Assembly: GCF_019331775.1 (NCBI RefSeq)
Contig: NZ_JAHBBD010000001.1
Location: forward strand, 1 to 64,000
Reading direction: 5' to 3'
Source: Bifidobacterium phasiani
GTDB lineage: Bacteria > Actinomycetota > Actinomycetes > Actinomycetales > Bifidobacteriaceae
DNA length: 64,000 nucleotides
Shown here: piece after piece, positions 10,713 to 59,867 of the stretch
Layout: each line of letters begins with the position of its first letter
How positions within the stretch are numbered: the stretch's first letter is position 1
Translations under genes and position numbers: made by a program
Notes under the pieces: model-generated
Databases searched by the model: none
The model's input: the letters and a program-made list of their open reading frames with translations, nothing else
What the model was told of the DNA's origin: nothing

Positions 10713-11890
10713 CCATACCTCCGGAAACCCTCGTCCGGCATATACCGATAGTGCGTGACTGCGCACGGCCGTACCAGGCGATATGCATCGCGTCTGCGGT
10801 GGCCCTGACCATGGCCGAATGTCTGGCGGGCTCCGCCCATACCCCGTTCCGCATATGCGAGGCGGTCGTATTGGCGGCGCTGACCGTCGGGATGTACCGG
10901 TGGACCGGATTCTGCGGGGCGTGCATCGTGCTGGCGTCCGACGTCGCGACGCTGCTGCCGGGAATGGCGTTCTCCCCGCAGCTTTGGGCTCACTGGCTGG
11001 CGTACGGCATGCTTGCGTTCCAGAGACGGCGTTCATTGGTCGTTGTGCTGCTGCTGTGCGATTGCCTTGTTTTCCCGGTGGCATGGCTGATGAACGTTCC
11101 GACGTGGGAACCCGGCGGAATCGTCACATTGCTGGCGTCATTCGCCGTGGCCTGCGCCGTTGGGTACGCATTGGCGGAACATCGTCGCATACGCATGGCG
11201 AATGAGGAACTGCACAATGTGCGTCGGCATAAGCTGGAGCGGGACCGGCTGCGACGCGACGTGACGCTGGCCAGCAGAATCCATGATTCCACGGCACGCG
11301 GGCTTACGCTCATCGCCCTCACCGCGGAAGAGGGGCACGACGACATGACGGCCGGCGAAGGCCATGCCGCCCGTCTGCGTGACATACGGACCATTGCATC
11401 AATGACTCTCGCTCAGGTCCGCGACGTCATCGACGTGCTGGAAGGCGCGGAACCGTCGTATCGGCTCGACGCCTACGGATATGCGGGCACATTGACCGAG
11501 GCATTGCGGCAGCAACTGCGTGACAACGACCGGGTTCTGGCGTCATTGGGATTTCATGGCATCAGCACGCTGGATGATGCGACCGAGGCCGCGAGCGCGC
11601 GGATGGACAAAGAACGCGCCGAAGCGATGCATGACTGCATCGATCACATGTACACCAACATCGCCATCCACGCGACCGCCGGCGATGACGCCTATGTCGT
11701 GCATGTGCGTATCAGCGAATCGGGAATCGGCATCGTCCAGTTCAACGCATGCGGGGCACACGCCGAGGCGAGTCATGGTTCCGGTCGCGGTCTGGCCCTG
11801 CACCAGCGACGCATGCGGTCATTCGGAGGAACACTGGATTGCAGCGTTCGCGACGGCATATGGATACTGCGCATGCACATGCCGTGGTGA
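10709..11890 (+). CDS. Divergent membrane sensor histidine kinase (HisKA_3-like)
   Basis: A 393-residue protein with about five to six hydrophobic membrane segments in residues 25-155. A short coiled linker follows, then a phosphoacceptor site at His192 in LASRIHDSTARGL, which resembles the HisKA_3 pattern used with NarL-type regulators. The ATPase part is unusual: the region at MHDCIDHMYTNIAIHA can be read as a weak N-box and GRGLALHQRRMRSFGG as a G-box, but the standard motifs are eroded. The gene starts at an ATGA overlap with the response regulator; an in-frame ATG 24 bases earlier is possible. It is probably the cognate sensor. Kinase activity should not be assumed. Confidence 0.75.
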   Translation: MTIPPETLVRHIPIVRDCARPYQAICIASAVALTMAECLAGSAHTPFRICEAVVLAALTVGMYRWTGFCGACIVLASDVATLLPGMAFSPQLWAHWLAYGMLAFQRRRSLVVVLLLCDCLVFPVAWLMNVPTWEPGGIVTLLASFAVACAVGYALAEHRRIRMANEELHNVRRHKLERDRLRRDVTLASRIHDSTARGLTLIALTAEEGHDDMTAGEGHAARLRDIRTIASMTLAQVRDVIDVLEGAEPSYRLDAYGYAGTLTEALRQQLRDNDRVLASLGFHGISTLDDATEAASARMDKERAEAMHDCIDHMYTNIAIHATAGDDAYVVHVRISESGIGIVQFNACGAHAEASHGSGRGLALHQRRMRSFGGTLDCSVRDGIWILRMHMPW

Positions 11891-23938: not shown

Positions 23939-24066
23939 GCCATCATCACAGACTGGACGAAGGCGCCATCGTCACACGCCGGGCGGGGCGTCATCGTCAC
24001 GGACCGAGTGGGATGCCATCGTCAACAAAACCGGATGGGTGTCGTCGTTACAGGCCGGGCAGGCGC
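23939..24066. repeat. Degenerate tandem array, 25-26-bp period, about 5 copies
   Basis: Five successive units begin GCCATCATCAC, GCCATCGTCAC, GTCATCGTCAC, GCCATCGTCA and GTCGTCGTTA at 23939, 23965, 23990, 24015 and 24041, each ending in a G-rich tail. The units are related but not identical. Confidence 0.75.
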
Positions 24067-24090
24067 GTTGTCGCCCGAAATGGTGGGGCG

Positions 24091-24285
24091 CCATCCCAAA
24101 GACACATTGTGCCCGTCGTCTCAACACGAGACCGCACATGGTCGGGTGTCATCCCCAAAAGCACAATGTGCCTATCGTCCCGGCACGAGACCGCACGCGG
24201 CTGAGCATCATCCCCAAAGACACATTGTGCTCGTCGTACCAACGCAAGACCACACGCGGTTGGGTGTTATTCCAAAGACACATTG
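24091..24285. repeat. Degenerate tandem array, 59-bp period, about 3.5 copies
   Basis: Units share CATCCCCAAAGACACATTGTGC, with AAAG cores near 24098, 24156, 24216 and 24274 (one copy reads CACAATGTGC instead), followed by ACGAGACCGCAC-like sequence. It follows directly on the 25-bp array. The core recurs in another array at 34806. Confidence 0.8.
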
Positions 24286-24314
24286 TGCAGCAGCGAAAAC
24301 GAATCGACCAATCA

Positions 24315-24910
24315 GCGTCCGGTATCACACACAGGCATGAAACGACCGACGCGGATGAGATGCACCGCGTTCGCTATTGCACACGGACATGAAATAACCG
24401 ACGCAAACCGTATGTTTGGCGTCCGCTACTGGACACGGGTGTGTAATACCAGACGCAGACCGGGTATTCAGCGTCCGGCATTACACATGGACACGAAACA
24501 ACCGACGCAAACTGGATATTCGGTGCCCGGTATTACATGCGTAAATCGAAACCGGTCACGGTTGCCATATGTTGCGTCGGTCTTTACACGCACGTATGGG
24601 AGAACGGACACAGACCAGATATTCGGCGTCCTGTATTACACGGGAAGGTCGGAAACCAGTCACGGTCGGTATACGCTACGGCAGGTTTTACGCACGGGAG
24701 TAGAACAACGGTCACGGACCAGGTATCCGGCATCAGATATTACACACGCGCACGAAACAACGGTCACAGATCGGGGTCCGGCGTCCGGTATCACACAGGG
24801 AGACCGAGAACCGGCCGCGGATGGTACACGCCGCGGCCGGTTTTACGCACATGCGTGTAATAAGGGCCATGGAAACCGTCATCCGCGGCAGGTTTTACAC
24901 AATCCCGTGA
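24315..24910. repeat. Degenerate tandem array, 52-bp period, about 12 copies
   Basis: Units begin GCGTCCGGTATTACAC-like at 24315, 24367, 24419, 24471, 24523, 24574, 24626, then more diverged near 24675, 24730, 24781, 24829 and 24884, followed by GAAACAACCGACGCAGACCG-like sequence. The array stops about 15 bases before the aroQ stop. The units are too diverged and lack spacers, so it is not a CRISPR array. No protein reading frame is maintained. The region 23843-24925 has no gene I can support. Confidence 0.8.
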
Positions 24911-34070: not shown

Positions 34071-34745
34071 TCAGCCGTTGTACGACACCACGCGGATCGA
34101 CTCGGCGAAGGGCGCGTCGGCGTCGAAGTCCAGCACGGTGACGCTGCCGTTGGCGGGACGCTCGCTCAGGTCGAACCCCTCGGGCGCGAAGCGATGCATC
34201 AGGCTCAGCAGCGTGTTGCCGTGCGCGATCACCAGCACGTCGTCGCCGTCCTTCAGGGCCGGATCGTCGGCGATCAGCGCGTACGCGCCCTCGACGCGGC
34301 GCCAGTACTCGGCGTCGGATTCGGCGTCGTGGAACGGGTCGGCCTGCTTGAGGAAATCGCGCGTGGCGGCGGCGCCGAACCGCTCGACGATCGCGTTGTA
34401 CGTGGGCGCGCCGTGCGGCGCCCCGGCCATGTACCACGCCATGGCCATGTCCATGCCCTCGAAGTATCCGTAGAACTGCTCGCGGAAGTGCATGTCGCTG
34501 ACCAGCGGCGGGCGGGTGTGCCCGGCGCGCTCGTTGATCTCGAGGATCGTCCGCGCGGTCTGCTGCGCGCGCGTGGTGTCGGAGCAGTACGCCGCGGCGA
34601 ACTCGACGTTGCTGAGCTTGTCCCCCGCCCTGGCCGCGTCGGCGACGCCGTCCTCGGTCAGCGGCGCGTTCGTCCAGCCCTGGAGCCTGTTGTACCGGTT
34701 GAAATAGGTCTGTCCGTGTCGGACCAGATGCAGATGCAGAATCAT
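34071..34745 (-). CDS. Histidine phosphatase (phosphoglycerate mutase-like)
   Basis: A 224-residue protein of the histidine phosphatase superfamily. The phosphohistidine motif LVRHGQT is at 8-14, the acid-base Glu lies in FREQFYGYFEGMD, and the second His in VIAHGNT. The RHG start is cofactor-dependent mutase-like, but this branch is often a broad phosphatase rather than a glycolytic enzyme. No Shine-Dalgarno sequence precedes the ATG; GATAAT lies seven to twelve bases upstream, so a leaderless mRNA is likely. A 68-bp tandem array begins only 61 bases upstream. Confidence 0.85.
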   Translation of the reverse strand: MILHLHLVRHGQTYFNRYNRLQGWTNAPLTEDGVADAARAGDKLSNVEFAAAYCSDTTRAQQTARTILEINERAGHTRPPLVSDMHFREQFYGYFEGMDMAMAWYMAGAPHGAPTYNAIVERFGAAATRDFLKQADPFHDAESDAEYWRRVEGAYALIADDPALKDGDDVLVIAHGNTLLSLMHRFAPEGFDLSERPANGSVTVLDFDADAPFAESIRVVSYNG

Positions 34746-34805
34746 GGTTTCGATTATCGCACCCGACGGCCGGGCCATTGCACGGCCCGTCGAAGACCGG
34801 ATCAG

Positions 34806-35110
34806 TGCCCAACTCGCCAAAGGCACAATGTGCATGAAGATTCCCGCCGCATCCCTCCGGGCAGACAGGGTGTTGCTCGACCCGACAAAGACACAATATG
34901 CATGAAGGTTCCGGCCGCATCCTTTCATCCGAACAAGGCATTTCTTGGTCCGGTAAAGACACAATGTGCATGAAGATTCCCGCCACATCCCTCCGCACAA
35001 GCAGGATGTCGCCTGGTCCGCCAAAGGCACAATGTGCACGGAGATTCCGAGCGCATCATTCCGGGTAGACAGGATGTTGCCCAGTCCGGTAAAGGCACAA
35101 TGTGCGCGGG
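34806..35110. repeat. Degenerate tandem array, 68-bp period, about 4.5 copies
   Basis: Units contain AAAG[AG]CACAATGTGC at about 34818, 34886, 34955, 35022 and 35090, then ATGAAGATTCCCGCCGCATCC-like and a G-rich part. The palindromic core GCACAATGTGC also recurs in the 59-bp array at 24091. The array lies in the 760-base gap upstream of the phosphatase gene. No reading frame is maintained. Confidence 0.85.
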
Positions 35111-35263
35111 GCCGACCACTTCCCTGTTCGGATGGGCGGAATGGTGCCCGGGCCGGCGGAGAATGACGATCCAGGCCGTTGAGAATGACAACCCGCCGAT
35201 GATGGAGATGATGACCTGGGCGACGCAGGACGACAACAGTGGGGTCAGTTTCTTCCGGTGGGG

Positions 35264-35380
35264 CACGACACGCCGAAAGGGGCCCGCAAGGTTCAATGGA
35301 TGGTCTGCGGGGAATGGCGGGATGCCGGGATTCTCCGCGGACCATCCACCAACCCCTGCGACCGCCTCGGCGTGTCGTAC
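35264..35380. repeat. Long imperfect palindrome
   Basis: A 117-base palindrome centred near 35322. The outer arms are CACGACACGCCGA (35264) and TCGGCGTGTCGT (35367); the inner arms are GGATGGTCTGCGGGGAAT (35298-35315) and its near-complement (35330-35347), with only two mismatches. The intervening arm sequence also matches. It differs from the ~190-bp element in sequence but not in style. Nothing else is identified between 35110 and 35508. Confidence 0.7.
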
Positions 35381-35508
35381 CGCGTACTCGGGCACGACGG
35401 CGGGGTCGCAGGCCAACAACCCCGCCACCCCGGTCCGGAATGCCGAGACATTGTGCGCATCGGGACAATCCGCGCCCGGATGTCGGGTTTCGTGCTTAAC
35501 TGGTCCCC

Positions 35509-35874
35509 ATGGGACGATTCATTTCACGTTGGCTCGTGCTCACCATCGCCGCCGCGGTGATGGTCGCACTGCTGCCCGGACTCACCGCGATCGGCGATCC
35601 GCCCGTGCTGGGCATCGCCGCATTCGCCCTGTTCATGGCGTTGATCAACGCCTCCATCAAGCCGATCGTGCAGCTGCTGGCGCTGCCGTTGTCGGTGCTC
35701 ACGCTCGGCCTGTTCGCGCTGGTCGTCAACTGGCTGTTCATGGAGCTGGCCTCGTGGCTGGCATTCTCCCTGTTCGGCGTCGGCGTGGTGATCGACGGCT
35801 TCTGGTGGTCGGTGCTCGGCTCGCTGATCATGTCGATCGTCTCGGCGCTGGTCGGCGCCGTCGTCGGCGACTGA
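35509..35874 (+). CDS. Phage-holin-family IV-like four-helix membrane protein
   Basis: A 121-residue protein with four membrane helices, beginning MGRFISRWLVLTIAAAVMVAL, with ALINASIKPIVQLLALPLSVLTLGLFALVVNWLFME in the middle. This matches the 'mycobacterial 4 TM phage holin, superfamily IV' family, which is chromosomal and not phage-linked in most actinobacteria. Its role is unknown. It is alone between the palindromic region and two terminators. Confidence 0.85.
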   Translation: MGRFISRWLVLTIAAAVMVALLPGLTAIGDPPVLGIAAFALFMALINASIKPIVQLLALPLSVLTLGLFALVVNWLFMELASWLAFSLFGVGVVIDGFWWSVLGSLIMSIVSALVGAVVGD

Positions 35875-59020: not shown

Positions 59021-59423
59021 ACGCAGAGCATGGCACGACGGATTCGGCACGAAGCGCAGCCACGCGTCCGCCCCCCACAATGGCGGCCGGCCATCCGGCA
59101 GAGATCGACGCTGCGACGCCGACGCACGGACATGGGTCCAATCACAACACCCGCCGTGGGTCATCGACCGCACAATGCCGGCGTATGGGCGTAGATTCCA
59201 TGGGAGTCGTCCCGCGAAACGCATCGTGCCACTACCTTCCGCACGCTGAAGACCACGCGGCCGGAGCCGATCGTATCAACGAATCCCGCCGTCCCGCCCA
59301 AAACGCCGATCGGATGCGAACGTCCGCAACAATCCGTTGCGTCCGCAGCGTCGCGCCGCACCCGGCCTGCACAATGTGTATGTAGGGGCACCGACCCGAC
59401 GGACGATAGGAAAGGGGACAACG
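59021..59423. other. Non-coding gap before the XRE-zinc-ribbon gene
   Basis: About 400 bases with no gene I can support. TGCACAATGTGTATG near 59370 resembles the CACAATGTGC core of the tandem arrays and overlaps the likely promoter, some 50 bases before the next start. Confidence 0.35.
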
Positions 59424-59867
59424 ATGGCCATCAAGGACAAGCTGGCGAGCCTGCGCCGCGAACGCGGTCTGACGCAGGAGGACCTCGCGCGGAAGGTCTA
59501 CGTCACCCGGCAGGCGGTGAGCCGCTGGGAGCACGGCGAGACGACGCCCGGCATCGACATGACCAAGCTGCTCGCGAACGCGCTCGGCGTACCCATCACC
59601 GAACTGCTGGAGATGCCCGACCACTACTGCGAAAGCTGCGGCATGATGTTCACCGGTCCCGACCAGCGCGGCCACGAGGCCGACGGCTCCGAAACCGCGG
59701 AGTACTGCCGCTGGTGCTACGAGGACGGCAGGTACACGTACGAGACGACGATGGACGACATGATCGAGGACTGCGCGCCGCGCATGGCGCACTACATGGG
59801 CTGGAGCGTGGACGAATGCGCCTCCCTGCTCGGCGCGGTGCTGCCCACGCTCAAACGCTGGCGGTGA
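59424..59867 (+). CDS. XRE-family regulator with a C-terminal zinc-ribbon-like domain
   Basis: A 147-residue protein. The first ~65 residues are an XRE helix-turn-helix (LASLRRERGLTQEDLARKVYVTRQAVSRWEHGETTPG). A zinc ribbon-like part follows, with CESC (about 72-75) and CRWC (about 97-100) as the likely metal ligands, then a C-terminal helix bundle (MIEDCAPRMAHYMGWSVDECASLLGAVLPTL) typical of the 'putative zinc ribbon domain' family. A transcription factor whose signal is unknown. The ribosome binding site AAAGGGG supports this start. Confidence 0.88.
   Translation: MAIKDKLASLRRERGLTQEDLARKVYVTRQAVSRWEHGETTPGIDMTKLLANALGVPITELLEMPDHYCESCGMMFTGPDQRGHEADGSETAEYCRWCYEDGRYTYETTMDDMIEDCAPRMAHYMGWSVDECASLLGAVLPTLKRWR

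Follow-up and report, generated by a model that had tools for sequence, protein, structure and literature searches.

What do two tandem arrays of different period have in common when they repeat the same short palindrome, and is it the binding site of one protein or the relic of one mobile repeat? The window that raises this question is a 64,000-nucleotide stretch of Bifidobacterium phasiani (contig NZ_JAHBBD010000001.1), and its relevant features are collected in Table 1. Both arrays with a palindromic core are present as the first-pass annotation had described, and the similar sequence that it had placed before an XRE gene near 59370 is a core just upstream of that gene. With up to one mismatch allowed, the window has 12 occurrences of the word GCACAWTGTGC where 1.34 would be expected, and none of 100 shuffles reaches 12. 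The AAAG beside the core, which had been proposed as part of the shared feature, is not general; the exact form AAAGRCACAWTGTGC is found 13 times in the genome, seven of them in the window.

Table 1. Positions of cores, arrays and neighbouring genes in the window
Feature	Position	Strand	Remarks
68-bp tandem array	34818..35105	.	Period 68, 4.2 copies, five cores
Cores of the 68-bp array	34823, 34891 (variant ACACAATATGC), 34959, 35027, 35095		
59-bp tandem array	24095..24288	.	Period 59, 3.3 copies, four cores
Cores of the 59-bp array	24102, 24161, 24220, 24278		Central A/T is the sole core difference
Single exact core GCACAATGTGC	11212..11222	.	
Single core GCACAATGTGT	59369..59379	.	50 bp upstream of the XRE/zinc-ribbon gene
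Divergent intergenic gap with the 68-bp array	34746..35535	.	
His_Phos_1 histidine phosphatase gene beside the 68-bp array	34071..34745	-	Pfam E 1.3e-31
Small membrane protein gene, Phage_holin_4_2 family	35536..35874	+	Opposite side of the array gap; E 1.1e-18
XRE helix-turn-helix and Zn_ribbon_2 protein, 147 aa	59424..59867	+	Candidate binder solely by the site 50 bp upstream

Between units of the 68-bp array the core is 96% identical and the flanks are 63% identical; the corresponding values for the 59-bp array are 94% and 54%. For this comparison the window's two arrays alone count, the core having been fixed by the search pattern elsewhere. The 68-bp array does lie upstream of a phosphatase gene, which reads away from it on the minus strand. 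This gene had been described as having no ribosome binding site. By eye, GATAAT stands a few bases before its ATG, and a leaderless start of the transcript may therefore explain the absence.

A sharp word enriched in few genomes

The first-pass observation is real, and larger than first noted. Over the whole genome (2,712,769 bases, or 2.71 Mb, in 54 contigs; G+C 67–69% in the four contigs analysed in full), GCACAWTGTGC occurs exactly at 110 places and its reversed-pattern control at none. The Bifidobacterium genus primer Bif164f matches this genome once. We counted the form RCACAWTGTGY in a 1.06 Mb sample, which is 39% of the genome, is partly chosen around sites and has approximate gene calls; between genes it is found 127 times where 1.62 would be expected, and within genes 27 times where 0.05 would be. 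All 29 remaining one-base variants of GCACAWTGTGC together reach four copies between genes (9.0 expected) and seven within them (5.5 expected). The word is sharp, with these other variants at chance level. Genome-wide, intergenic sites prefer C at −11, G at +11 and C or T at −6, and the C−11/G+11 symmetry counts for a binding site. At coding sites the flanks show a weak preference, part of which follows from codon position.

Among 112 genomes of the genus, the window's own included, the word is enriched only in the latter (G000; 110 places) and in G020 (23 places). It has no place in the close relatives G003 and G056, and all but one of the remaining 111 genomes hold at most seven sites each, which we count against a binding site. 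A search for AAAGRCACAWTGTGC at two mismatches on both strands gives 129 matches in the own genome (control 3), 62 in G020 (control 3) and 23 in G014 (control 7), with most other relatives near control counts. Scanning 397 kb of G056 together with 126 kb of G003 for equivalent sharp words recovered local arrays, parS and DnaA boxes, and nothing comparably widespread; our coverage of these relatives is partial, about 797 kb of G056 and about 126 kb of G003. In a literature text search covering the word as well as repeats or nucleoid proteins of Bifidobacterium, none of the matches listed describes the word in Bifidobacterium.

In other genomes the paired pattern matched 33 stretches, 20 of them with clostridial titles and none titled Bifidobacterium, in a set that may omit the own genome or near ones; viral contigs gave no matches. 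About half of the 33 appear by eye to be GTAG...core...CTAC palindromes, and others are local tandem repeats. In our reading, these stretches place the same letters in another context.

Arrays, hairpins and gaps between genes

The 1.06 Mb sample contains 155 RCACAWTGTGY sites, with 47 groups of at least two within 150 bp. Each group is either one of 13 inverted pairs 59 bp apart or a tandem array, where most steps measure 57–92 bp; the remaining sites are single. The inverted pairs form 70-bp hairpins with a 33-bp stem and common inner arms TTCACGCTGAG. Of the 33 stem pairs, 21 are invariant and eight have changed on both sides with pairing kept, a number reached in 5 of 500 shuffles; 95.8% of hairpin cells are paired, against a shuffled mean of 92.0%. 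Further hairpin pair types are no better than shuffled ones (186 of 500). As terminators the hairpins were rejected, genes in all orientations being found beside them. Arrays at different places have, by eye, little in common beyond the core.

Array steps bunch near 57–60, 67–70, 78–82 and 89–92 bp, and a periodicity of about 10–11 bp has a p value of 0.0006 (n=46). With one spacing per cluster the median p is 0.005 (n=34), and when six possibly related or coding clusters are left out it is 0.11 (n=28). Helical phasing of the sites is thus suggestive only, since the result depends on which clusters are kept.

Position was examined on four whole contigs (698 kb, with genes called by our own script). 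There, 63 of 74 RCACAWTGTGY sites are intergenic, compared with 21% of bases (p 1e-31), so that the link to gaps proposed from the two arrays extends well outside the window. By gap orientation, the sites number 16 in 27.8 kb of convergent, 13 in 31.2 kb of divergent and 34 in 89.4 kb of same-direction gaps; since divergent gaps show no excess, there is no promoter preference on these contigs. Also, the 208 gaps shorter than 200 bp contain no site. A role of the sites as promoter switches is not supported.

The gap with the 68-bp array is longer than its counterpart in G056 by about 640 bp (790 versus 151 bp between gene ends, 750 versus 113 bp between aligned blocks). Of eight site-bearing gaps that could be anchored by their flanking genes, seven exceed their G056 counterparts by 250 bp or more, compared with 7 of 99 site-free gaps. 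Some site-bearing gaps are no longer than in a relative, or hardly so: 578 bp against 603 bp in G003 (C23:113915-114494), 2158 against 2079 bp (C12:144288-146447) and 330 against 397 bp (C5:20945-21276). Mobility may lie behind the 13 hairpins and the newly lengthened gaps. In G020 the core lies at both ends of a roughly 113-bp dispersed element that also has an inner palindrome; the open reading frames between paired copies, inspected for a transposase, do not by eye look like one.

Several other repeats share these gaps. The gap of the 68-bp array includes another dispersed intergenic repeat (window 35266..35427) with a stem GGATGGTC...GACCATCC seen by eye; it matches C51:76353-76907, C18:30719-31033 and C12:144288-144938, and by eye the family also lies beside the array at C23:140712-141329. 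The gap of the 59-bp array holds a 52-bp array (window 24367-24521) and, by eye, a shorter CCATCGTCAC repeat (window 23940-24090), and it has a 507-bp match of about 59% to C14:20297-21760. Gaps in relatives that correspond to site-bearing ones contain, by eye, other local repeats, CAACNGTTG with TTACGCGC in one (G003:C8:26880-27550) and GTGGTAC words in another (G056:C5:47395-47830). Intergenic DNA of the own genome carries the further enriched dispersed words TGCTACCGAACCGAC, TGTAGCGGATT, GGTTCACAGGAT and TCCGTATTCGGT, which suggest multiple repeat families. That such families also lie in site-bearing gaps counts against a binding site, and part of the site pattern may for this reason be repeat accumulation.

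Five parS-like sites GTTTCACGTGAAAC at C23:88941-94488 likely mark the origin region, and no RCACAWTGTGY site lies between 53.9 and 114.0 kb on this contig. On a rough map made with the complete chromosome of G051, which placed 22 of 28 pieces, contigs placed near the origin appear richer in clusters, with 26 per 562 kb, than those far from it, with 8 per 549 kb (p 0.003), in a post hoc hand count from the 100 places listed out of 110. Against this grouping, C23:124991, on the parS contig, was placed at 1.02 Mb in G051, and we do not build on the difference.

Sites inside genes

Among coding 11-mers seen at least eight times on the four contigs, GCACATTGTGC is the one most in excess (10 versus 0.18 expected). 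Eighteen of 22 exact coding sites lie in the frame G-CAC-AAT/ATT-GTG-C, although some of the gene calls are doubtful. CAC AAT GTG occurs 16 times and CAC AAC GTG twice, whereas only 385 of 7588 asparagine codons are AAT (p 3e-19). AAC is 19 times commoner than AAT; coding sites thus carry a rare codon.

We aligned six coding sites, two of them in paralogues, with relatives. All differ by one to six bases inside the 11-mer and none by an insertion or deletion; at one site ACC CTG in relatives is ACA TTG here. With one paralogue dropped, 16 of 55 positions are changed inside the 11-mer and 24 of 200 in the flanks, a comparison biased by the choice of sites for having the word in their own genome. 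At the inositol-phosphate synthase site two amino acids also differ from G003 and G056. Nevertheless, G051 has the same 11-mer there, and this site may therefore be older or due to chance. According to Pfam, coding hosts include inositol-phosphate synthase, a GlnD-type protein, a pyridine-nucleotide oxidoreductase, carbonic anhydrase, glycoside hydrolase 3, aconitase, dihydroorotate dehydrogenase, an MFS protein and a protein kinase, among others, and these assignments show no common functional theme.

Two mutational sources of the coding sites were considered, CpG deamination of GCACAACGTGC or GCACGATGTGC and template conversion of near-cognates. Neither is favoured, because near-cognate words occur at about expected counts and because, at four of the five independent sites aligned, two to six bases separate the word from its counterpart in relatives.

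A proposed binding protein, its rivals and known systems

Between the two explanations first offered for the arrays, a shared DNA-binding protein fits better: in the window's arrays the core has been kept far better than the flanks, and the genic sites carry rare codons with no change of length in the six that were aligned. A single ancestral mobile repeat is insufficient, because arrays at different places share little (by eye) except the core. We infer that RCACAWTGTGY is the recognition site of the species' own sequence-specific, dimeric and probably helix-turn-helix DNA-binding protein, with a genome-wide role like that of a chromosome-structuring or silencing protein and not that of a promoter switch; we regard this as about an even call. 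The odd-centred palindrome would fit such a dimer. Arrays and 70-bp hairpins would then seat several dimers side by side in long intergenic DNA, and the substitutions behind single genic sites would have become fixed although they sacrificed good codons and some amino acids. Fixing them would need selection or drive on the DNA word itself.

An HTH_3 profile search of the genome gave 33 matches at E 0.01, of which 19 are over the family cut-off, and singled out no binding protein. Six of 30 loci examined contain a site; with 10 sites over 90 kb, the density does not exceed that of the sample. At two loci the site is just upstream, namely the XRE–zinc-ribbon gene at 59424 and a helix-turn-helix-bearing gene at C17:21271 (open frame of 359 aa).

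In the main rival explanation, the arrays and hairpins would be the remains of mobile palindromic repeats, miniature elements of REPIN or MITE type that a transposase has moved. The common inner arms of the hairpins and their two-sided changes with pairing kept, the dispersed element of G020, the lengthened gaps and, on our own reading of them by eye as REP sequences, the GTAG...CTAC palindromes of other genomes all agree with this. We nevertheless consider it fairly unlikely. PF01797 (Y1_Tnp, RAYT) has no match in the genome at E 0.001, while the control matched in 5 of 14 named genomes; the flank matrix has no GTAG tag, arrays are alike in little beyond the core (by eye), some site-bearing gaps are hardly longer than in relatives or no longer at all, and the sites in genes are bare 11-bp words, without inserted DNA in the six aligned. 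Neutral spread, in which tandem duplication and repeat accumulation fill intergenic DNA without function, agrees with the several other intergenic repeat families and with the fact that 150 of 322 site-free gaps of at least 150 bp match another gap. Against it, the core is much more conserved than its flanks in the window's arrays, sites in genes use a rare codon, and the other families are absent from the listed enriched coding words; we think it quite unlikely.

That the sites are ordinary operators of one regulator with a large regulon is improbable in our view. An odd-symmetric palindrome like that of Aca1 and the site before the XRE gene would suit an operator, but convergent gaps are as well supplied as divergent ones, short gaps are empty, coding hosts lack a common theme, and weaker one-base variants show no excess. 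DNA uptake sequences for natural transformation would likewise be sharp short words within and between genes, also in inverted pairs, and the word belongs to one species of the genus and weakly to a second. We rate this explanation as highly improbable, since 110 exact places in 2.71 Mb fall short of a yardstick of about one per kilobase or two. Known uptake words are some ten times more numerous than that, and tandem arrays and long hairpins are not typical of them.

A further possibility, which we put forward tentatively and with more doubt than belief, is a newly evolved genome-wide system. A protein in one Bifidobacterium lineage would have changed its specificity to a new one, after which sites, well over a hundred of them, would have been written into intergenic arrays, hairpins and housekeeping genes, costing good codons, for chromosome structure; G020, with the same word in another architecture, would perhaps have acquired it separately. 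Families of sites for global DNA-binding proteins are usually kept throughout a genus, and their origin is hard to study for that reason. The present word is common in one species, and close relatives with which that species has much gene order in common lack it. This allows the appearance of sites to be followed one gene at a time, and recoded housekeeping genes give a measurable cost. If the protein is identified, this practically important genus would have a chromosome organiser or silencer peculiar to one species.

Among known systems, the sopC-type centromere repeats of the F plasmid are tandem direct repeats, each with one inverted repeat. The arrays described here are built in the same way, but they are chromosomal and dispersed at dozens of places. 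REP elements are mostly extragenic with some inside genes (PMC3733652). As with REP and REPIN sequences, we see palindromes, inverted pairs forming hairpins and a mostly extragenic location; unlike them, the present family has no GTAG tag, no RAYT match and bare 11-bp genic sites. The Aca1 binding DNA quoted in the Aca10 paper contains GCACAATGTGC and GCACACTGTGC (PMC9410881). Operators of Aca1, a phage anti-CRISPR repressor that acts as a helix-turn-helix dimer, have the same odd-centred palindrome as the word here, although Aca1 has two sites at one promoter and here there are a hundred over the chromosome. By analogy with this operator, recognition of such an 11-mer by a protein is possible, with no implication of an Aca1 relative. 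The site families of Noc, SlmA, MatP and ParB are sharp palindromes with tens of sites within and between genes; they are conserved across related species and are not known to form tandem arrays. In contrast to all four, the present family is confined to one species and has arrays and hairpins, yet it resembles those of Noc, SlmA and MatP in being a sharp palindrome with many sites, genic ones among them.
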